Shown here: positions 194 through 64,000 of the stretch, piece after piece
Position numbering within the stretch: the stretch's first letter is position 1
Layout: each line of letters begins with the position of its first letter
Assembly: GCA_013397455.1 (NCBI GenBank)
Contig: VYZB01000078.1
Span: 2,373,543-2,437,542, forward strand
DNA length: 64,000 nucleotides
Reading direction: 5' to 3'
DNA from: Crotophaga sulcirostris
Taxonomy: Eukaryota > Chordata > Aves > Cuculiformes > Crotophagidae
Notes under the pieces: model-generated
The model's input: the letters and a program-made list of their open reading frames with translations, nothing else
Databases searched by the model: none
What the model was told of the DNA's origin: nothing
Translations under genes and position numbers: made by a program

Positions 194-1060
194 GTATCAC
201 AGTATCACAAGGTTGGAAAGGACCTCTGAGATCATCAAGTCCAACCTATAAGCCAACACTAACACCAACCCATCATCTAAACCGGGGCACTCAGTGCCTC
301 ATCCAGTCTTCCCTTAAACACCTCCAGGGTCGGCGACTCCACCACCTCCCTGGGCAGCACATTCCAATGGCCAGTCACCCTTTCAGTGAAGAACTTTTTC
401 CTAACATCAAGTCTAAACTTTCCCTGACGAAGTTTAAGTCCGTGCCCTGTAGTTCTGTCACTGGTCACCTGTGAGAAGAGACCAACCCCTGCTTGACTAC
501 AACCTCCTTTTAGGTAGTTGTAGAGAGCAATAAGGTCCCCCCTGAGCCTCCTCTTCTCCAGGTTAAACAGCCCCAGCTCCCTCAGTCGCTCCTCGTAGGG
601 CTTGTGCTCCAGCCCCTTCACCGTCTTTGTTGCCCTCCTCTGGACACCCTCCAGTATCCTGGCATCTTTCCCAAACTGAGGGGCCCAGAACTGCACACAG
701 TATTCAAGGTGAGGCCTGACCAGTGCCGAGTAGAGGGGGACGATAACTTCTCTGGTCCTGCTCGCCACACTATTCCTAATGCAGGCCAGGATGCCATTGG
801 CCTTCTTGGCCACCTGGGCACACTGCTGGCTCATGTTGAGCTTCCTGTCAACCAGCACCCCCAAGTCCCTTTCCGCCTGACTACTCTCCAGCCACTCCGT
901 CCCCAGTCTATATATAGCTTTGCATGGGATTGTTGTGTCCAAAATGAAGTACCTGACATTTGGACTTACTGAACCTCATCCCATTAGAGTCGACCCATCT
1001 CTCCAGTCTGTCCAGGTCCCTCTGTAGGGCCATCCTACCCTCTAACAGATCAAGTCACTC
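194..1060 (-). mobile_element. CR1 LINE, 5'-truncated, reverse-transcriptase 3' part
   Basis: Read on the minus strand, 942-277 is open for 221 codons. It carries C-terminal CR1 reverse-transcriptase blocks: [47 protein letters not shown] and [26 protein letters not shown]. The 3' end is at about 194, with the TATCACAGTATCACA-type tail that replaces the more common ATTCTGTG repeat. The 5' limit near 1060 is approximate. It lies in the SLC1A1 intron upstream of the first visible exon and is antisense to the gene. The uninterrupted frame suggests a fairly young copy. Confidence 0.92.
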
Positions 1061-2664: not shown

Positions 2665-17522
<14,858 letters not shown>

Positions 17523-20381: not shown

Positions 20382-21078
20382 TGTCATAGTTTAACCCAGC
20401 AGCCAGCAACGAAGAATCATGTGGATCCAAGCTGGCAATGAAGAACCAGGCAGTCTCACACTCACTCGTCCCAGATGGGCTGGGGAGGAGAATCAGGATT
20501 TAAAAAAACAAAACTCGTGGGCTGAAATAAGTACAGTTTAACAGAGCAGAAAAGGGAGAGAAAATACAATAATAACAGCAAAAGAATACACAAAGCAAGG
20601 AACCAATGCACACTGCTTAAGGAAAAGCCAATGCCTGCACACATTCCCAAGTCACGTGGTCCTCAAAAAATATATCGCCACCATTCAGAAAAATGCCTGA
20701 GGAGGAAGGGCTGGCAGGGAGGAGCTGCTATGGACTGACCGTAATCCCCATCCCCCATCCCCCTGTGCTACTCGAGCTGGGGTGAAGGTAGAGGAGTCAG
20801 GAATGAAGGAGTAAAGGTGAACCTGGGAAGAAGACGGGGTTGGGTGGGAAGGTGGTTTAGATTTTGTTTCTCACCATTCAACTTCAGTTTGCAATAAATT
20901 AAGTTAATTTTTCTCCAGCTGAGTTTGTTTTGCCTGTAACAGTAATTGGTCAGTGATATCCCTGTCCTTGTCTCGACAAATGAGCTTTCACATCTTATTT
21001 TTCCCCCTGTTCCATTAAGGAGGTGTGAGAGAGTGGTTGGGTGGGCAGCTGGCAGCTGGCCAGGGCTAACCCACCACA
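20382..21078 (+). mobile_element. Solo LTR, avian ERVL-like
   Basis: About 697 bp, beginning TGTCATAGTTTAACCCAGC and ending GGGCTAACCCACCACA. It therefore has TG...CA ends, and the outer bases are imperfect inverted copies of each other. An AATAAA at 20893-20898 and a TTGGTCAGTGATATCCCTGT block towards the end fit the R/U5 region of LTRs common in bird genomes. No internal retroviral genes or partner LTR are seen nearby, so it reads as a recombined solo LTR. Flanking bases (CCCAG and ATGAT) do not form a target-site duplication. Confidence 0.75.
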
Positions 21079-21300
21079 ATGATATACACAATATACACAT
21101 ATACTGAATTATAAATAGAAAGGAGTTTATAAATATTTATGTATTTTATTTATCTATACATAGATACACTATGAACTGTACTACATGATATAGGTTCTAC
21201 TACTATCCCACACTATATAATAGATAATATACACACAAAATATATATACATACATCAAGATTCAGAAATGTACATAGCCCTAAAAGCAAAGGTATAAAAT
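21079..21300. repeat. AT-rich low-complexity block
   Basis: Runs of TA/CA-rich sequence (TATACACA, TATATATACATACAT) directly after the LTR. No gene signal. Confidence 0.6.
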
Positions 21301-23340
21301 GGTTAAAACATTCTTTAATAAGAGCTAATGGAATTAATAGACTGGGTCAGGGTCCTGCACTTTAGCTGGCTGCAGAACAAGCACTGTATGTCCAGGGTGG
21401 AGGGGACTTGAAAAGAGCAGAGGAATGCCAAAAGCATGGTGAGGTACAGACATGTTGTAATACACCTGAGGGCTACAGAGGCCACTAAGGGGCCACTGCT
21501 GCAAATCCTGTCATGTGCAGAGGCTGATCCTTTGCTAGACCAAGAAAGAAAAGACCTTAAGGGAATCATATGAAATGGCCATGGGAACCAGAGGAACCGG
21601 CTGACGGGCTTGTGTACACAAACAGGGTTTGGAGGTGTCACACAGGGAGAGCAGGTGGCAGGTCAAGCTCTCTTTGCCTATGGTTGTGAGGGATGTTCTA
21701 ATGACCTGTAAGAGCATTATTGTTATAAGAACCCTTTCAACTTTAAGCATTATGATATAAATTTTGTGGCCTTGTACATGGATGCTGAACTAATAGCAGT
21801 GAAATTCAATGCCAGTGCAGCAGCCCAGTTTTGAGAGTGCCTGCAGTATGAGAGAGTACACACAGCTCATTCAGATGATTGGCAGTCATATGAAAGCCCT
21901 TTCTGTGCTGATTTATAGGGACAAGTTTGTCAGTGGCTATTCCATTTGCCTTTGACTTGTCTCTAGATGAAGGATGTGCTGATAACTATTCCCAGATTAA
22001 AACAAGAAACCTGTGCACGTTGCAGGGGCCTTGATCACTATTGTTAATATGGTTAGGTACAGCATATTTGACAACATCATAGAAATAAACCAGTGGTGAC
22101 ATGTATTCTTTGACTGCCTGTGAAGATGGACACTGAACAGCTTCCTTATTTTTTTTTCAGTAGCCCTCTACAGCAAAGAAATATTTTCTAGACATTTACC
22201 TGAGCAAATGGCTCCCTAGGGCCAGTGCTTCTCCAGGACCAGTAAGCATGGTTATTAATAAACTTCCCTGGTTATCCTAAGAAGAAATATGTTTGTGTTT
22301 CCTTAAAGTACTTGTGCATTTTTCTGATATTGTGTGTGCACATAACCCAACACCTCCTGAACTATACCGCCAGAGGCCTAAGGAGTCTCAGGGTGCTTTT
22401 CCACTTCTGTCTGCATAGGGAGCACAGACAAAGAAACAGCTCACAAGGCAAGTGCCCCTTTATTTCGACCGTCCCAAAGCCAGTCGTCAGAGTGCCAAAA
22501 TTCTCAAAAATAATTTTGTGGAGTCCAAAAGCCTATTGTTTTGTTTTGTTCATGAAGGGAAAGAGGCTAGTAAAATCACAAAAAAATTATCCTTTCATTG
22601 GGAGCGCTTTGTAATATGGACAAAAAGTATTTCGCCTGCCACCAACAAGCACATCTCTGTGGACCAGCAGCATGAACAGTTTGGACCTGGCTAAAAACTG
22701 TGCAAGCTTCACATCTGATTTTGTCATAGTGGCCCATTAATGCTTCTATAAAGATGTGATGTGAAAACAGGCTCTCTTTATGTAGTGCTTCTTTCGTTGT
22801 GTTGTATAATACAAATATACAAAGGTAGTCTCTACGAGAAAGTTCTGGTCATTTTCATAGTAGCATTTGTTACAGCCGTAGGAAAAAAACATTAAATTCA
22901 AAAGCTTTTGGCATCCTACCAATAACTGCATAACCATCCAAGAAGCAGGATCCTATTTTACATTCACCACCTTGTAATGCTTAACAGATTTGAATATTTT
23001 CAGCCACACAGATATGCCATTGAAAGGGGTTGTATATGTCTTTTTCCTGAAATGATGGCCAACTGAAGGAAAAGTGCTACTACATTGCGTTTAAGGAACA
23101 TAAACTAGCATGTGGACATGCAAGTAGAGATCAGTGTAGTGCACTGTAAGGAATCTTCACTTTTTCACTGTCTTCTTTCCCATAGAATGTATGATGGGTT
23201 ATCACCATAACCTCATTCCTATATGATCTCAAAAGTTTTTACGTATTGCTGGCAATAGCAACTCAGCTGGTTTTGCGAGTCAGAAATCTTCTCCTGGCTA
23301 GCTGTGTGCCAAGATAAGAACTGTTTTTTATCTTAAAGCG

Positions 23341-23886
23341 TCATGTTGTCCGAAACATAATATTCCAGTGGTGGAAGAGGCCCCATATAAATTTGTTTTC
23401 CAGCAGTGTTCTGAATAAATGGGGGAAATAACCTTTGCAGTCCTCAATACCCAAAGTCTGAGGTGGGGTGCTTAATTTATTGGGTAGAAAATGTGACGAA
23501 TCACTGAAACGTACAGTCAGACTGGGTGCTTCTATACATATAAGTTCACTGCCTTTGGTGATAAACCATACATCCACTCTTGCCTTCAGAAGCTGACTAA
23601 CAGCAAAGTAGCCATCCTAGCCTTTGGCGTTGAGTGCTAGGGAAGTGTAGCCCTGAATCTTTGTGTCCATAAGCAACTGAATGAAGTACACAAAACCTGT
23701 GTCTTCCCATTCTTGTTCAGTTTTCATTTCTGCCCCTTCTTCATCCCAAGGGGCACCTGGTGTTAGGGGCAACCCTAACTCCATGGCAAAAGTGTAGTTT
23801 GGGTTACATGTCCCAGTCTCCTGCAAGCAGTACATATCATAGATAATACAGTCCTGCCCTGCCTCTGGGTTTTTGATCACAGGCAC
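23341..23886 (-). pseudogene. Best-preserved segment of the PolB relic: exonuclease domain
   Basis: The frame from 23886 to 23341 is open except for one TAG at 23617-23619, about 182 codons in all. It holds the CIIYDMYC block, NAKG/DGYF, a VRFSDSSHFLPNKLS block and KGYFPHLF. The last few codons already read in the wrong frame, since the GPLPPLEYY continuation lies in another frame at 23386-23357. The first exonuclease acidic pair is altered: YDMYC keeps the Asp, but the expected Glu two residues on is Tyr. Confidence 0.8.
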
Positions 23887-24544
23887 AAAACACCAGTGCT
23901 AGTTTACATTACAGATCTGTTCACAACACAGCCTGCACTTCCCGACTTTACATTTGTGATGTTTTTCTACATAGGCTTTATGTTTTTTCACAGAAAATCT
24001 TAGCCAGACAATTTGTTTTTTAACAGCCAAGGCCTTGTGCCCCTGCAAACATTTCCCCAACCTGCACAGCAGCTTCCAGCTGGCACACCTTATCTGTCCC
24101 CAGGTTAACTGCACAGGCATGAGCAAGCAGAGGCAGCAATAATATTTACAGCTTTATATAGTGCATAACAAAGTTCACATAACTTTCTCATCCCAAATAA
24201 CTTCTTGACACCCTTTACATCATAATAACCTTAAACATGTAAAAGGAAGAAAGAGATCTTGCAATACCAAAGACAATGATTTGGCATAAAAGTCCCCCAA
24301 CTGTTTTTCCCCTCAGGCAGGAGGATTATAAGTATATTTACACTTCGCAGATTATCAGACAAGGAGCTGTCACTCAGCATGACGTTCCTGTGTACAGCCC
24401 AGCCCGGTTTCTCATGTCACTCTTTTGCTCTGTTTAACATTTCTGCATCTATTAGATCCCTCATGACTGGAAGTTCTGCGTAAGAAAACTAGTAAAACAG
24501 AGTCTATTGTGACCATTGTGATTATTTTTGTCCATGGTTTTGGA

Positions 24545-24849
24545 ATGGAAGATCTCTTCTCTCTGGTGACCAAAGGCAGAACCTGAGGGAATGGCAAGAA
24601 GATGTGCCAGAGGAGGTTTTGTTTGGATATCAGGAAAAGGTTTTCCACTCAGAGGGTGGTGGAGCACTGGAACAGCTCCCTAGAGAAGTAGTTAAGGCAC
24701 CAAGCCTGACAATTCCAGAAGCATTTGGACAATGCCCTCAGACACACACGGTGTGAGTGTTGGGGTTGTCCTATGCAGGGACAGGAGTTGTACACAATGA
24801 TCCTTGTGGGTCCCTTCCAACTCAGGTCATTCTGTGAAGTTCTGTGAAA
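24545..24849 (+). mobile_element. CR1 LINE 3' end fragment inserted in the polymerase relic
   Basis: Plus-strand sequence with the standard CR1 3' terminus: GGATATCAGGAAAAGGTTTT, CAGAGGGTGGTGGAGCACTG, GATCCTTGTGGGTCCCTTCC and the tail CATTCTGTGAAGTTCTGTGA. The orientation is opposite to the polymerase relic it splits. Confidence 0.88.
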
Positions 24850-25271
24850 GATAGACTGTAGGATCCTGCAGAACTCATTCCTAATGGCTTTTACAATAAT
24901 GGTAGCTAGGCAGAAAGACTGATCAAAACATAGCTCTCTTCTACTTTGCAAAACAGTACTGACCCAGTCTAAAAATTTCCAGCCTTCATATGGCATGAAT
25001 TAGTAGTATGAGATTATAAAGAGTAATGCATGCTGGCAGTTTCAAGACAGAGCTGAGCATAATCATCAGGCTCAAACAGATGGTGTAAATTATCAAAAAT
25101 CTGCTCTACATCCTTAACAAATGTTTCATAAGCTCCACGTAGTGACACTTGATCTAAATTAACTAAGTTATATTCTGCATATTGTCTAGTCTTGAACCTC
25201 GGGATCAGCCACTCCCACTGCTGAATATGCACCACAGAAGTCGTGGGGTGATCTGCCACATCCTCCATCAA

Positions 25272-26570
25272 TCCTACATCCTACATTTGAGGATGGATTA
25301 AATCTAGGCATTCAAATGCCTCCTCAGTGCTTGGGAGTGCAGCCAATGGAGCCCATGGGAAACATCCTCGTGCCTGACAGCCTCTTGCTCCTCAGGGTGC
25401 TGCAGTGACCAGGAAATCCCTTTCAAGGGGTCATCTTCTACTCTAGTGGGAGATATGTTACTGGCCAACAAGGTTCAGAAAAGCAGTTTCCATATAAGAG
25501 CCCCATAACCACTTCCCAGCAAGACACTTGCTCTTTCTGCAGTGACTGTGGTCTCTAAGAGCAGAGAGCTCCAGTGCATGTCCCAAAGTCTGTGTCTTGA
25601 TGCTTTTGCAGTAATCATAGCCTAACATGAACACTTGATCTTCTGCTTCTTCTTTGGAGCATTGCCCTGAGGATAAATACATACCAGCACAGGTTTCTAG
25701 CTCAACACACTAAAGGAAAGCAGACTTGCATCAAACAGACTCCTTGAAATACTAGTATTTAATTTGCTAGTGCAGTCTGGGTAAGAGTGTGAAACTCTGA
25801 TCCAGACAAGAACAAGAGTGATGTTAAGAAATGACAGGCAACTCATGTTCCAGTCACATCTGTATTTAAGGGTGATGACCCTCAAAACAGGTATTTAAAA
25901 TGCATTTTAAAGTCAATTAACCATTTTAGAAGGAACATCTGAGGGTCTACATTGCCTCAAACGGCCTGAGAGGGTCAAGCTCTGCTGCAGGAAGGGATTT
26001 ATACATTTGGCACAAAAACAGAGTTCACTGGATGTCACCAGAGAAATCCAGGTTTTCTGCTGTTGTTTTGTTCTACCAGAGGGTCCCAAGGCAGTCTTAA
26101 CACTAGAACAGCTTGCAGATCAATACCTGGGGACTGAACAATTCGTAGGTTTGGAGGCTACAAAAAAATCAGAACCCAACTACAGAGCTTGTGTTAGGAA
26201 ACTACCTTAAAAATGCTCCATCATTGTCCCTGTTGAAACAGTTCCACAAGGGCTGATAGCTGCAGAACAATATATTAATTATTGTCTTAGATGCTGTAAT
26301 TTAATCTTCCCCAGAACATATAAAACACACTCAGAATAACTCACATTGACCAAGCTGTACTGATAATGGTAACAATACCTTTTTTAAACAGGAAGGTGAG
26401 AGTGTACCTAAGACAGGTGTTATACTGGCTAAGTCAGTGTAACAAAATCTGGCCTTTGATATCTGCAAACAGAACAGAAGAAAACTGGACAGAGCTAAAC
26501 ATAGTACGTGGTGTTAATGGAACAATCACAGCAGAAAATAAAGATGTTAAAAACAGAAAAATAATCCTGG
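25272..26570. other. Gene-free stretch upstream of the polymerase relic
   Basis: A short minus-strand open frame (25682-25458) reads MYLSSGQCSKEEAEDQVF and could be decayed sequence of the same element, but it has no recognisable domain. The rest shows nothing I can name. Confidence 0.4.
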
Positions 26571-26572
26571 AA

Positions 26573-27413
26573 CCACAGAATGGTTTGAGTTGGAAGGGAC
26601 CTCAAAGTTCATCCAGTTTCAACCCCACTTCCATGGGCAGGGACCCCTCCCACCAGCCCAGGCTGCTCCAGGCCCCATCCAACCTGGCCTTGAACACCTA
26701 CAGGGAGGGGGCACCCACAGCTTCCCTGGGCAACCTGTGCCAGGGCCTCCCCAACTATCATTGTGAAGAATTTCTTCCTAATGCTAATCTAAATCTTCCC
26801 CCTTTCAATTTAAAGCCATTCCCCCTCATCTTATCACTATTTGCCCTTGTAAAAAGTCCCTCTTCGGCTTTCTTGTAGAACTCCTGAGGGGGCGGGGGGG
26901 CTCTCTCCAGAGCCTTCCCTTCCCCAGTCTAAACAACCCCATCTCTCTCAGCCTGTCCTCATAGCAGAGGTGCTCCACCCCTTTGATCATCTTTGTGGCC
27001 CCCCTCTGGACCCATTCCAACAGTTTCATACCCTTCTTATGTTGGGGATTCCAGAACTGGACACAGTACTCCAGGTGAGGTCCCGCAAGAGTGGAGAACG
27101 GGGGAAGAATCACCTCCCTTGACCTGCTGGTCACGCTTCTTTTGATGTGGCCCAGGATACAGTTGGTCTTCTGGGCTGCAAGCACACATTGCCTGCTCAA
27201 GTTGAGCTTCTCATCAACCGGTACCCCCAAGCCTTTCTCCACAGAACTGCTCTCAGCTACATCATCCCCCAGTCTGTATTGAAACTATGGATTTCCCCAG
27301 GCCACCTGCACCACTCAGTTTGGTGCCATCTGCAAGCTTGCTGAGGATGTACTCAATCTCACTGCCTATATCACTGGTGAAAATAAACAGCACTGGTCCC
27401 AGTACAGACCCTA
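26573..27413 (-). mobile_element. CR1 LINE, reverse-transcriptase 3' part
   Basis: The minus strand reads CR1 RT blocks in 27242-26826: [47 protein letters not shown] and RLREMGLFRLGKGRL. The 3' end at about 26573 has the GGTTTGAGTTGGAAGGGACC consensus region. Upstream coding continues to about 27413, where another CR1 abuts it. The 3' untranslated part (GGGACCCCTCCCACCAGCCC) differs from the 194-1060 copy, so it is a different subfamily. Confidence 0.9.
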
Positions 27414-29228: not shown

Positions 29229-29917
29229 AACAGCACCTGTGCTCCTGCCCCATCCATTAATCGGCCTAGATCCTTAAACTCCTTTTTAATTACCGTGGAG
29301 ACCTTCTTACCAATTTCATCACTGCTAGCCTGGACAGCCAACAAGGGATAATAATCCCAGGGCTGAATTAGATCCGGGAGTCTCTTAGCAATATCCTGTA
29401 CCTGGGCTTGAGGAAGGCAGCAGACTTCCCTATGGGATGGATCCGGCCTGCATATGGGACCCTCTGTGCCTTTCAGAAGGGAGTCACCTACTGCAACTCC
29501 CCTCCTTTTCTTTTTTGTACTGGAGGTTCTGATCGGCCTGACAGACGGAGAAAAGTTGAGAGGCTCCCCAGGTGAGTTTTCTCCATCACTCTCTTCAATC
29601 TGAGCCTCAAATTCCAGGACCCCAAACTTGTTCTGTAAGGGCAACTGGAAAGGTGGCATCTGGAAGGGAGTCAGAGGACGGGAGGGAGATCTATTACCCC
29701 CTCGAGAGCAGACCTGCTCCCGTTCCTCCTCACCACCCAGGTCACTCTGCTTAACCTGGTGAGGAGGAACACACGGCTCCTCCGCCCCCTGGGGAGGATT
29801 GCTGGGAGGAGAGAGGGTGCGACCCCACCAGTCTGTCTCCCTTTCACGGATACTCCTCAGCCTCCACCTGATCCTTGAGGGCTGCAACCATAAGAAGCAG
29901 ATCACAAGCCTGTTCAC
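29229..29917 (-). CDS. CR1 ORF1 fragment with GDSL-esterase-like segment
   Basis: About 229 codons without a stop up to the gap. A Pro/Glu-rich N-terminal part is followed by RRGVAVGDSLLKGTEGPICR, CCLPQAQVQDIAKRLPDLI and YYPLLAVQASSDEIGKK. GDSLL with the following spacing matches the esterase-like (SGNH-type) domain of CR1 ORF1 proteins. The open frame suggests a relatively young insertion. The C-terminal part is hidden in the gap. Confidence 0.8.
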
Positions 29918-30325
29918 ACCTCATGCAGGTGTTTCTTGGACTGTCCCCCGGCACCACGAGCAGGCTGAGGCATTCCCTGCAGCCCACGGCCTGGGCAGCT
30001 GCCCCCCTCACAGCGGCACCGTTTGGGCAGACTCACTCCTGGCAGCAGGGCTTTGGCTCGCCTGGGCACCCCTGTCAGTGAGGGGATTGGGAAAAGCCGA
30101 CCATGCCCACCAGAGGAGCCTCGCCTCGCCTCGCCTCACCTCACCTCGTGCCTGCTGCCACGTGGGCTGCCCACGTGACCGCTGCCACTTCCGGGGTTCC
30201 GGGGAGTCGCCCTGCCAGGGGCCTCTCCTGGGCCTCCCCGCTCTCAGGGGATTCTCTGCACCCCTTGATCGAGCACCCGGCGGCAGCACTGGCCAGTCCT
30301 GCTGCCGATCCGCGCTGAGGATCTT

Positions 30326-36871: not shown

Positions 36872-39376
36872 TTGTCTATTCCTATTTTGCAATGCTTTCA
36901 GCTGCTGGGAACATTAAGTAAGAAAGAGATTATACAGAGACAGAGAACAGGAGGTGGCATGTCCCCAAACATGGAACCACAACAAATGGATCAGAGGTTG
37001 GAGGCCCTGGAGGTGATTGTGCAGGTGCAGCCTCAGAAGCCAAGCCCAAGACGGGAGGCCCTGGTGGTCAATGTGGCATGCAGTTACAGCAGGAGTGTCA
37101 AGGGCCAGCTCTTCCACAAGTAACTGTGTAGGTACAGCCACAGAAGTGGGGACAAAGAATGGGGACTAGGTCACAGTGCAGCTGCGGTTGGACCATGACC
37201 CAAAAGTAACCTGCCTTCAGGACCAAGGTGAAGAAATGTTAGGGAATGGAGAGTATGTGACCTCAAAACAATATCAGGGAGAGCCAAGGGCAAGTTCTGA
37301 AGGTGAGAGGGAACTGGCTGTGGTGGAGCAAATACCACTGGGGACTTTGAGCCAAAAGCAGGATCAAGAAAAGGTGACAAAACCCCATCAGAAACAGAGA
37401 CAAAGCCAGGAATTGTTATTGCAAAAATGAGGAGTTAAGTTGGAGGAATTGTTATTGCAAAAATTGTTATTACAGGGTAAAGAACAAGGATATGAGGCAA
37501 CTACTGTAACTTCTTTTAGTGTTTCTATCTGGAAAAAGTTAGGCAATAAATTGTTTGACTGTGCCACACGGGGGGCCAAAGACGGTGCAGCACTTCTGAT
37601 GAAGATGCGGAGTCTGCTTTTATGAGACTCTGAAAGACTTTAAAGTGCAACGAGATCAGGCAGAGGACATTGCCTCCACTTCTAATACCATGCAAAGTCC
37701 TGCACCCCTGGTGCTACTCCCTTCAGAGAAACAGACACAGGGGAATAAACAAATTATGGATGCAAAGGGAACAATGGGGAATGTAATGCTAGAAAGGGAA
37801 AAGATTGTTTATTCTGGAGTATGCCTTAAAACCTATGAGCTGCAGAGGAGGGTGAAGCTTTGGGTGGATTCTGATAATGAGATGTACACAAAACGCTCTT
37901 TGGCAACTCGTGATAGAACTTATAAAACACCCACAGAGCTGATGGGTGAACTAGAACCGGTGCCCTCAGTTGACACCGGTAATTCAGCTTTGGTGAAGTG
38001 ATTGGCTCCGCCACCTCCTCCTTCAGATGGGGGGGAGGCTCAGCACTATGCGAACCCGTTGTTGTATCCCCCACTCCCAGATGAAAGGCCTGATGATTGG
38101 AGTGATTTGATGAATGAGGGTGGGGAAAAAGAAAATGAGCAGTAAAGTGGAACAATTGGAGAAACCTCCTGGGGTTCCCTCTTGCAGAAAGATGTCTCAG
38201 TAACGGGATTTGCCTCCATCACGTATTACTGTTCATCCATATAATCCTCTATCCTTTTGGCAGAAGGTAAAAGCACGGGCTTTGCAGGAAGGAAATTGGG
38301 ATTTGTCTGAGGCAGTAGACACCCCAGTGACGGAACCCACTGCCAATCCTTCTATATCAATGGCCTTTCCTGTTGTAAGGAGGGACCCAGCACGAGGGAT
38401 AATGGACGAGCACAAAGCATAATCATGGAAGGTAATCCAAGATTTGCAAAAATGTGTGGCGCAGTATGGTCCAAATTCTCCAGTGACTATGCAATTAATC
38501 AGACTGTTAACTATGGAAGAAATGACACCTTATGACATTGCTATGATAGCGCAAATAATGTTTCAACTGGTGAAATATACTGCTTTTACAACAATATGGG
38601 TGCAGAAGACTGAAGCCCAAGCACTTTGAAATTTACAGTTTCCGCGAGATGATGTGCGTTTTGGTAATGGTTCAGATGTGCTATCAGGAACGGGACAGTT
38701 TTCTAACCCATAACATTAGGCACAGTGGCATCCATTGGTTTTAGAACAGGTCAAGGCTGTGGGTATCGAAGCCCTAATATGGACAGCTGAATTAGCTGAA
38801 CCTAAAGCAAAATACACCACAATTCAACAGGGGATTAAAGAACTGTTTTTACAGTTTGTTGAAGAGTTGCAAGCTGCAGTGGAAAGACAAGTATTTGACA
38901 GGAATTTAAGGACTATGTTAGTAACTCAACTTGTGAGAGATAAGGCAAATGCCAATTGCCAAAAAATTATTGAGGCATTGCCAGGGGACCCCACTCTGGA
39001 CACGATGATACAGGCTTGTGCCAAAGTGGGATCTGTAGAGCATAAAATGGCAGCCCTGGCCATGGCCATGGCTGCTATCAAAACAAAAGACCAGATATAC
39101 TTTACTTGTGGCCAGAGTGGGCACATTAAAGCAGCGTGTCCTAATAAATATAAAATGGGTGGGACGCCTGGAATGGCAGGAGCGGCAGGAGCGGCAAGGA
39201 TCATGTGTCATAAATGTGGAAAAAATGGCAACTTTGCAAAGCAATGTCAGTCTAAATTTCATTTAAATGGCCAGCCCTTGCCACAGGGAAATGGTACAAA
39301 GAGCGCGAGGGGGTGCGCGCAGACACAAGTAACTGCCACGTCAGCAAACAATCCATGGATTCTTGGCAGCTGGTAA
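36872..39376 (+). pseudogene. Endogenous retroviral gag remnant
   Basis: The matrix/linker part is broken over several frames (36872-37123, 37176-37430, 37440-37625, 37645-38001). The capsid-nucleocapsid part stays in one frame from 38210 to 39376 with stops at 38420, 38627, 38711 and 38717. Capsid blocks include PYNPLSFWQKVKARALQEG, the major-homology-like segment around IKELFLQFVEELQAAVERQ, and IQACAKVGSVEHKMAALA. Two CCHC-type knuckles follow, both with a lost ligand: Tyr (TAC 39098) replaces the first Cys of knuckle 1, and Asn (AAC 39230) replaces the His of knuckle 2. Capsid style fits betaretrovirus-like class II elements. Confidence 0.82.
37409..37475 (+). repeat. Two 20 bp direct repeats in gag linker
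   Basis: GGAATTGTTATTGCAAAAAT occurs at 37409-37428 and 37445-37464 (period 36), followed by a partial third copy (ATTGTTATTAC). Confidence 0.8.
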
Positions 39377-41648: not shown

Positions 41649-41658
41649 GGGGGGGGTA

Positions 41659-41725
<67 letters not shown>

Positions 41726-43067: not shown

Positions 43068-46000
43068 GTATGACCCATATCAGTGTGCGTGAAAACCATT
43101 GCTAGCCTCTTTTTTTCATTCTACTTGTTACTAGTCTTGAGTGTCTTCTGTGTCCAGGACAGCCCAAAACCACAGTACGTGTTGTACTTGTTAAATAGGT
43201 TAAGGGTTTTTCCTTACTTTGTCTCATTAATGAGAACAAGCTGCACTCATATGACAAATCTGGATGACTTTTCTGTACTGGAAATGCCAATCAGAACTTG
43301 CCTGGGTCATCAGGTATTAGGCATGAACCAACAATGTGCACTCACAGCCCTGAAAGCCAGACATATCTTGGGCTGCATCAAAACAAGTGTGGCCAGAGGG
43401 ATAATCACCTCCCTCTCTACTCCACTCTGGTGAGACCTTACCTGGAGTACTGCATCCAGCTCTGGAATCTCCAGTACAGGAAAGATATGGACCTGTTGGA
43501 GCAGATGCAGAGGAGGGCCACAAAAATGGCCAGGGGGACAGAACATCTCCCCATCAAAGAAGGGCTGAGAGAGTTGGGGTTGTTCAGCCTGGAGAAGAGA
43601 AGGTGCTGAGGAGACCTGATTGTAGCCTTTTAATACTTCAAGGAAGCTTGTAAGAAAGATGGAAAGAGATGTCTTTTCCACTGCCTGTAGCAATAGGACA
43701 AGGGAAAATGGCTTTAAACTGAAAGAGGGTAGATTTAGACTGGGTATAAGGAAGAAATTTTCTATGATGAGGGTGGTGAAACACTGGAACAGGTTGCCCG
43801 GAGATGTTGTGGGTGTCACGTCCCTGGAAGCAATAGAGGTTAGGTTGGATGGGTCTTCAGTAACCTTATCTGGTGGAAGATGTGCCCACTCACAACAGGA
43901 CGGGATGGAACAGTATGATCTTTAAATGTCCCTTCCAATCCAAACCACTCTTTTATTCTGTGTAGCCCAAGTGTTGCCAAATGGGCTGAACAAACGTTTC
44001 TTCACGTGAAGAGGGTGCTTCTCTACTGTTCCAAATTCTTAAAATGTGGAACTGTTAGTTTGCATCTATTAATGACTACTGTAATACAGATCATTATTTA
44101 GCAAAAACTTTTGGTTTTTTCTAGTAGAATCTTAGCTTTAATTTCACAATTTAATTTGAACAGCCAGAACATCTCAATTTCACCAGTTTAGCTGAATCAA
44201 GGCTGCAATGTAGGTGACTCTCATTGTTTATGGATCAGTTAGTTCCTACTTGAGGACAGAGGTTTCTCAGAGTTCTTTGTTCAGTAAACTCTAATGATTG
44301 GACTTATAAACTCCATTATTAGGTAACGCACTTTCAAAAAGAAAACCTTCTCAAGTGTATGACATGTGACTCTGAAAGTAGAAAGTAACCCTTTAAACAG
44401 TGATATGTTAAAATACGATATAATGTAACACAAAAAGGTATATCTGGAGTCTCTGTGATAATACAAATTTTCTCTTCCTCAGAGTTTTATTAATCAAAAA
44501 GGAAAAGAAATAGAAGATGATGTGTCTGAACCACTTATGCAAAAACATGAACAAAAGATTAGACATTTTGGTAAGTGTGCTTTTTCCAACATTTCACAGT
44601 TCAAACTTCTACAGAATTTGTGTTGGTTTGCACCTTATTGTATGGAATGAATACTAACAAGTGAAAAACCCATCTAACAGACTGTTCAGCTTTATTTTAT
44701 CAGGACAGATAATAATTTTGAAGTGAAATAAGGTGTAAACTGTAGAAGCCTGTTAATTCCTGTGACCAGTAAGAACTTGCATTTGGAAAAAACAAACAAA
44801 AAAAACCAACACACATTAATACTCAAATAAGCTAAAACTCTGAAAACAAAAGTTCTAGCAACTTTTGGTGCTGTTCAGTGGGAAAAGACGTGTATATAAA
44901 AATACATGGGATTCTCCATAGCTATCTCCTTTTAAGAAATGTTTTTCTGGTGTCTATTAAGCTATAAGAGTAATGACTGATTAAAGGGAAACGTCTGTGA
45001 ACACCTGCTGAGAGTCTGTGCACATGGAATTGTGTGTTCCTTAAATTATATTTAATTATCCACTAGGTGTCACTTTAGCTCTACCATAATTGTTGAACCC
45101 AATTAAGCAACAAATGTAATCTTGTAAAGTAATATTCAGTGTTGATGGTTCTCTGAAGTGCTTTCCACTCTTAGTTACAGGCTGCTTTCAGACCATGGTA
45201 TAGTATAGGCGTATCTGGAATTCCAGAAAAATCAACAGGACTGAGTTGGCAAAATTCAATTCTTTGTACAATCTCATTTTTACTAAGACATTTGGCTTCT
45301 AACAATCTTAAACTGTTTTTAAGAAAGGGTTTCTACCCCTTTTAGCCTTAGCAAGCCTTGCAAGTACCAGATTGGGCCACAGTGCTGTCAGAGTATGCGA
45401 ACAGCAGAGATAGGCACAGATTCTCTCAAATATCAGATGATGTCTCCCCTGCTGTGCATTTCTGCAGAATAAATGAGGCTTTCTTGCAGGCTTCATAGCG
45501 TTGGGCAAAATTACTTTGTTGTCTAAATTCAGATTAAGCTGTTACAGTACCAATCTTATTACGGAACATCATCAATTTTTTTCCTACCTCCTATATTCAA
45601 AGTCATGTTGTTATTTTAATTCAAAATACGTAAGTCCATTGTAAAAATGGACAGTACATTAATACTTCTTCAAGTCTCTTGTTCTGTGCTAGCTGCTGCC
45701 AAGGAGCACTGTGGACTTGGCTAGCCATATTGCACAAGTCCCATTTCTGGATCCTGCTCTGGCTTCCAAGCAAGAAAGAACTTACGTGGAATAGCTCTCT
45801 TGAAAACAGCAAAAAGAAATAGTAGCCATTACTTTCTCTTCAGGCGTTAGCTTGCTAGAATTAATATTAGCTTAGGTCATTACGACTGAATTACCTTTAG
45901 CCCAGTTATAATTACACTCTGATAAGACAGGTAAAGCTGCACATCTGGTACCTGTTGCAAGTAGAGACCTGACTGTCAGTGATATGTGAAGGACAATTTT

Positions 46001-52636: not shown

Positions 52637-64000
<11,364 letters not shown>

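Follow-up and report, generated by a model that had tools for sequence, protein, structure and literature searches.

Remnant of a probable Maverick/Polinton-type DNA polymerase gene downstream of SLC1A1 in Crotophaga sulcirostris

We analysed 64,000 nucleotides of the bird Crotophaga sulcirostris (contig VYZB01000078.1, forward-strand positions 2,373,543 to 2,437,542), a stretch here called the window, in whose coordinates all positions are given. Downstream of SLC1A1, its minus strand carries what we read, with a probability of about 0.93, as the decaying remnant of a protein-primed family B DNA polymerase (PolB) gene from an integrated Maverick/Polinton element of adintovirus type. The remnant is dead and cannot make a full polymerase, since stops interrupt its blocks, which are spread over three frames. 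A living protein-primed PolB copies the linear Maverick genome from a terminal-protein primer. In the history that we propose, a Maverick/Polinton element would have integrated downstream of SLC1A1, and its PolB gene would then have decayed, probably neutrally. A CR1-like element would have inserted within the remnant, and the part with polymerase motifs B and C may have been deleted or have decayed beyond detection.

Polymerase blocks on the minus strand

The whole window was compared by tblastn with one intact PolB of 1315 amino acids (aa), encoded on a contig called L002 that is described below. Three matches reached E < 1e-3. They lie on the same strand, are colinear with the reference at 26-29% identity, and span 23964-22434. 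These matches (the first three lines) and further, weaker blocks are as follows.

23407-23964, minus strand: 3'-5' exonuclease domain, preceded by the end of the zinc region (tblastn to aa 457-625 with E 6e-12, 61.6 bits, 29% identity; frame -2, two in-frame stops)
23291-23494, minus strand: PolB block with GPLPPLEYY (tblastn, aa 596-663, E 5e-4; frame -1, three in-frame stops)
22434-22880, minus strand: palm region with GCNKCYY, VGGRRN and motif A (tblastn, aa 813-964, E 2.6e-5, 26% identity; frame -3, four in-frame stops)
22900-23025, minus strand: PolB block of aa 763-807 (22.3 bits in tblastn; a low-complexity-filtered BLAST run joined it to the aa 813-964 match with E 2.4e-6)
23902-24153, minus strand: cysteine-rich segment of zinc-finger type before the exonuclease, an 84-aa open piece with 12 Cys (blastp to aa 392-473, E 0.003 in a single comparison of one of 2801 pieces; not significant alone)
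24889-24978, minus strand: possible N-terminal block, free of stops (tblastn, aa 200-229; 33% identity across 30 aa, E 0.59, not significant)
22245-22340, minus strand: possible continuation (tblastn, aa 998-1031, E 2.0, 16.9 bits in a targeted search; not significant)

The exonuclease and palm blocks are thus colinear with an intact protein-primed PolB of Polinton type. The fossil is matched block by block by the PolB of L002, which, unlike it, is intact and stands beside an integrase. In 200 dinucleotide shuffles of 21000-26000, no score exceeded 26.9 bits, against 61.6 bits for the best real match, and the sum of the best three scores reached at most 65.7, against 137.4. No tblastn match to the reversed PolB sequence went under E 0.69 anywhere in the window.

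The original prediction had listed seven motifs as a colinear series of PolB blocks over 21680-25271. Six-frame translation of the window recovers all seven, each once, on the minus strand, in the order of that list and distributed over three frames.

23926-23958, minus strand: HKCKVGKCRLC
23413-23433, minus strand: GYFPHLF
23357-23383, minus strand: GPLPPLEYY
22857-22877, minus strand: GCNKCYY
22629-22646, minus strand: VGGRRN
22557-22577, minus strand: DFTSLFP
21754-21771, minus strand: GHKIYI

Six of them fall inside the colinear tblastn matches and GHKIYI falls outside. Polymerase motif A is present, DFTSLFP being aligned with DICSLYP of the L002 PolB within the E 2.6e-5 match; a strict motif-A pattern had no match anywhere in the window. 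The predicted series holds for 23964-22434 with six motifs, and is without significant support over its first 0.3 kb and over its last 0.75 kb, where GHKIYI lies. Tblastn with the L002 PolB gave no significant support in 25271-24979 or in 22244-21680. The scatter over three frames with many stops, and the assignment to a PolB fossil of Polinton/Maverick/adintovirus type, were both borne out by the three colinear matches, which score far above the shuffles.

The reference contig L002 (PBYI01000028.1, 8468 bases) is labelled as a Nocardioides metagenome-assembled genome (MAG). It was the single locus obtained among 75 candidate stretches when bacterial and archaeal genomes were scanned with the best piece of the remnant (E 4e-9, calculated over the candidates only). 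Positions 2739-6683 encode the PolB (Pfam DNA_pol_B_2, E 1.4e-49). An rve integrase adjoins it (E 2.2e-4, under its curated Pfam cut-off). The opposite strand encodes a 500-aa protein that has no Pfam match and could be called a capsid only by guess. The L002 PolB matches a record annotated as protein-primed DNA polymerase B with E 4e-14, one of seven phage or archaeal virus records. We infer that L002 is a mis-binned Polinton/adintovirus-like contig, in which case a eukaryotic virus-like contig has probably been placed in the Nocardioides-labelled bin. Matches of its PolB to designed repeat proteins, in which no stretch is significant alone, were judged to be chance.

Profile searches, missing parts and the CR1-like insertion

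The original prediction had named DNA_pol_B_2 as the profile that the remnant should match. Stop-to-stop pieces free of N were searched against Pfam in three batches. The first took 104 pieces of 52 aa or more from 16.5-31.5 kb, and the second took 140 pieces of 58 aa or more beyond 31.4 kb. The third drew on the 105 pieces of 54 aa or more from 1-17.6 kb, of which 98 were searched and seven had already been included among the 104. A single piece of the 104, 23344-23616, matches DNA_pol_B_2 (E 0.031 library-wide), but it does so under the curated cut-off. None of the 98 pieces of 1-16.6 kb matches this family at E 0.5. It is also absent from the best 25 of 41 families for the 140 pieces from 31.4 kb on, where a match worse than E 0.066 would escape. 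Two better E-values among the 104 pieces both lie outside the fossil (DUF5817, 4e-5, 29.8-30.0 kb; zf_VAL1_N, 3e-4, 16.8-17.0 kb).

Several points weigh against a Maverick/Polinton polymerase. At E 0.031 library-wide, about three matches are expected by chance among 104 pieces, and the Pfam match therefore counts only as a test of a family named beforehand. When pieces were searched separately, nine of ten had no DNA_pol_B_2 match at E 1, nor had nine of ten in a second search at E 10, 23344-23616 being the exception both times. A targeted search gave no significant match for aa 965-1315, which are missing or unrecognisable. The single-sequence structure model of the best piece is poor (pLDDT 52), and Foldseek on this model returned 167 matches at E 10, none of them at E <=0.001. 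PHROGs gave no polymerase, only weak matches of unknown function for three of ten pieces (E 0.24-0.43), and a match to the unrelated PDB entry Ika8 (E 8e-4) was set aside as chance, no stretch being significant alone. The sole PolB used as reference belongs to L002, with its Nocardioides label, and the placement with Mavericks rather than with other Polinton-like PolB is a tentative one guided by published papers and background knowledge.

Polymerase motifs B (NS.WGKF) and C (DTDS) were not found past 22434 in a targeted search, as would be expected if that part of PolB had been deleted or had decayed. In IMG/VR, two window pieces, the L002 PolB and four degenerate motif patterns yielded no relative; one locus drawn from the motif patterns was discarded, its two open reading frames of at least 200 aa being unlike a polymerase by eye. 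Among 50,697 phage records, tblastn of the best piece hit three (E 7-9), which we ascribe to chance. Another gene family matching in the same order was rejected.

Other parts of a Maverick were sought with the remaining L002 proteins. An integrase beside the PolB was not found, the best tblastn match of the L002 rve integrase in the window having E 1.5. The 500-aa protein gave E 2.3 at best, and none of three short L002 frames fell below E 0.45. In a general scan, no capsid, ATPase or protease kinds occur among the 21 Pfam families listed for the 104 pieces (16.7-31.4 kb). Eleven inverted pairs of 25-30 nt with 71-89% complementarity lie in 16.5-31.5 kb, none resembling long terminal repeats. 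Because the L002 integrase has no significant match in the window, we claim only a polymerase fragment and not a whole element.

Adintoviruses are defined in PMC11071296, where an N-terminal OTU-like domain is named as a feature of their PolB. The family name Adintoviridae resolves to Eupolintoviridae in the taxonomy. The corresponding region of the remnant, before the zinc segment, shows weak matches only: the block with E 0.59, and an alignment of 24984-24658 to aa 165-263 in a different register (E 0.006, in a targeted search with a small search space). The latter was not counted as significant, because it extends into the CR1-like stretch given next.

24553-24836 (limits approximate), plus strand: CR1-like insertion splitting the PolB remnant (repeat similarity within the window)

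This CR1-like element separates the possible N-terminal block from the zinc region. Three parts of it resemble other places in the window: 24553-24658 resembles a CR1-like stretch at 376-481 (69% alike, E 4e-6), 24609-24675 resembles 43724-43792 (74%, E 1e-5), and 24809-24836, in inverted orientation, resembles 26574-26601 (89%). At the protein level it matches the 280-975 minus-strand frame (E 5e-4). If it is an insertion, it would be younger than the PolB gene. Elsewhere in the window, mutually similar repeats of CR1-like kind occur at 277-975 (minus strand), 26.6-27.3 kb, 40.5-40.9 kb and 43.3-43.95 kb, with 67-73% identity over longer matches of 269-631 bases. The CR1-like frames 280-975 and 26829-27284 matched no Pfam family at E 0.01.

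The locus and published bird Mavericks

The placement of the fossil in the SLC1A1-CDC37L1 interval agrees with the genes found on its flanks.

13461-13700, plus strand: SLC1A1 (EAAT3) exon (phmmer match of residues 37-116 in piece 13353-13703 to EAAT3 chains, E 5e-34; Pfam SDF, E 3e-24)
63831-63950, minus strand: AK3-type adenylate kinase exon (match of residues 17-56 in piece 63375-63998 to Pfam ADK, E 8e-13; P-loop at 63918-63944)

A second SDF exon lies in piece 14171-14353 (E 1.5e-13), and the SLC1A1 exons stand on the plus strand, upstream of the PolB remnant. A further SDF match among the 104 pieces (E 0.0052) was not assigned to a particular piece. Beyond 31.4 kb, two of the 140 pieces match CDC37_M (best E 0.0042), again without assignment to particular pieces. 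The adenylate kinase gene, which we take to be AK3, would begin with the exon at about 63.9 kb. All three flanking genes, SLC1A1, the CDC37-type gene and AK3, are presumably Z-linked in chicken and other birds. Their order, together with the CR1-like repeats, fits a bird genome.

With these flanks, the remnant is probably no new integration: it is likely to be the same locus as the published Polinton PolB remnant on the Z chromosome of chicken and turkey, or its orthologue in another bird. PMC4992247 describes chicken PolB remnants on chromosomes 2 and Z that are kept in turkey, the Z copy being the best conserved. Both there and here, Polinton PolB frames in birds are interrupted. The expectation of a little-described integration is not supported; the kind of fossil is known, and the locus has probably been described already. 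In the accessible portions of the papers found, none names the SLC1A1-CDC37L1 interval. Chicken chromosome 2 also holds integrase and capsid remnants (PMC4992247), whereas neither the integrase of L002 nor the 500-aa protein beside it has a match in the window.

The wider record is in PMC8097293, which counts 3,511 Maverick loci across 143 species and gives minimum ages of 3-95 million years. Defective Mavericks occur there in many birds of many orders, and the avian ones form a well-supported monophyletic group. The present copy is likewise defective, but the window holds a single gene remnant. PolB fossils are also known across placentals (PMC9683012), and the Maverick integrations orthologous to human chromosomes 7 and 8 resemble ours in being old and in carrying PolB broken by stops and frameshifts. 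They are without terminal repeats, and none of the inverted pairs seen in our case resembles long ones; those integrations, in contrast, are in placental mammals and have more than one detectable gene. Polintons were excluded from the count in PMC11089739.

It is rather improbable that the insertion is separate from the galliform Z remnant, or much older and shared with crocodilians or turtles, so that it would date Maverick activity to the archosaur stem, with some of its sequence constrained. Less probable still is a conserved element exapted by the host from an old polymerase, for instance as regulatory sequence. Polinton fossils predating the amniote/amphibian split are on record, and some human relics are strongly conserved in mammals (PMC9004415); in our remnant, stops and frame changes throughout rule out a full-length protein. 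We can hardly credit, and reject, a chance resemblance of the motifs in repeat-rich DNA: about 30 of the 2801 window pieces do reach E <=0.01 in single PolB comparisons, as chance predicts and mostly elsewhere, and the Pfam match stays under its cut-off, but the three matches keep colinear order on one strand and the best score more than clears every shuffle.

Virus fossils that are orthologous and datable put lower limits on the ages of DNA virus lineages, and fossils of this kind show when birds lost their Mavericks. The remnant lies between recognisable host genes, so that birds and crocodilians could be scored for having or lacking it.

Other features of the window

An endogenous retrovirus has left a remnant at 38720-39373 (plus strand), where a 218-aa open gag fragment matches Gag_p24_C (E 3e-13) and zf-CCHC_5 (E 1.5e-8) in Pfam; Gag_p24 (E 2e-17) was matched by another of the 140 pieces, not assigned to a position. 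Runs of N at about 28.7-29.3 kb and 41.0-41.65 kb (1177 N in all) are assembly gaps, the second adjoining a G run at 41649-41723. The DUF5817 match lies at 29904-29987 on the minus strand and is under its curated cut-off.
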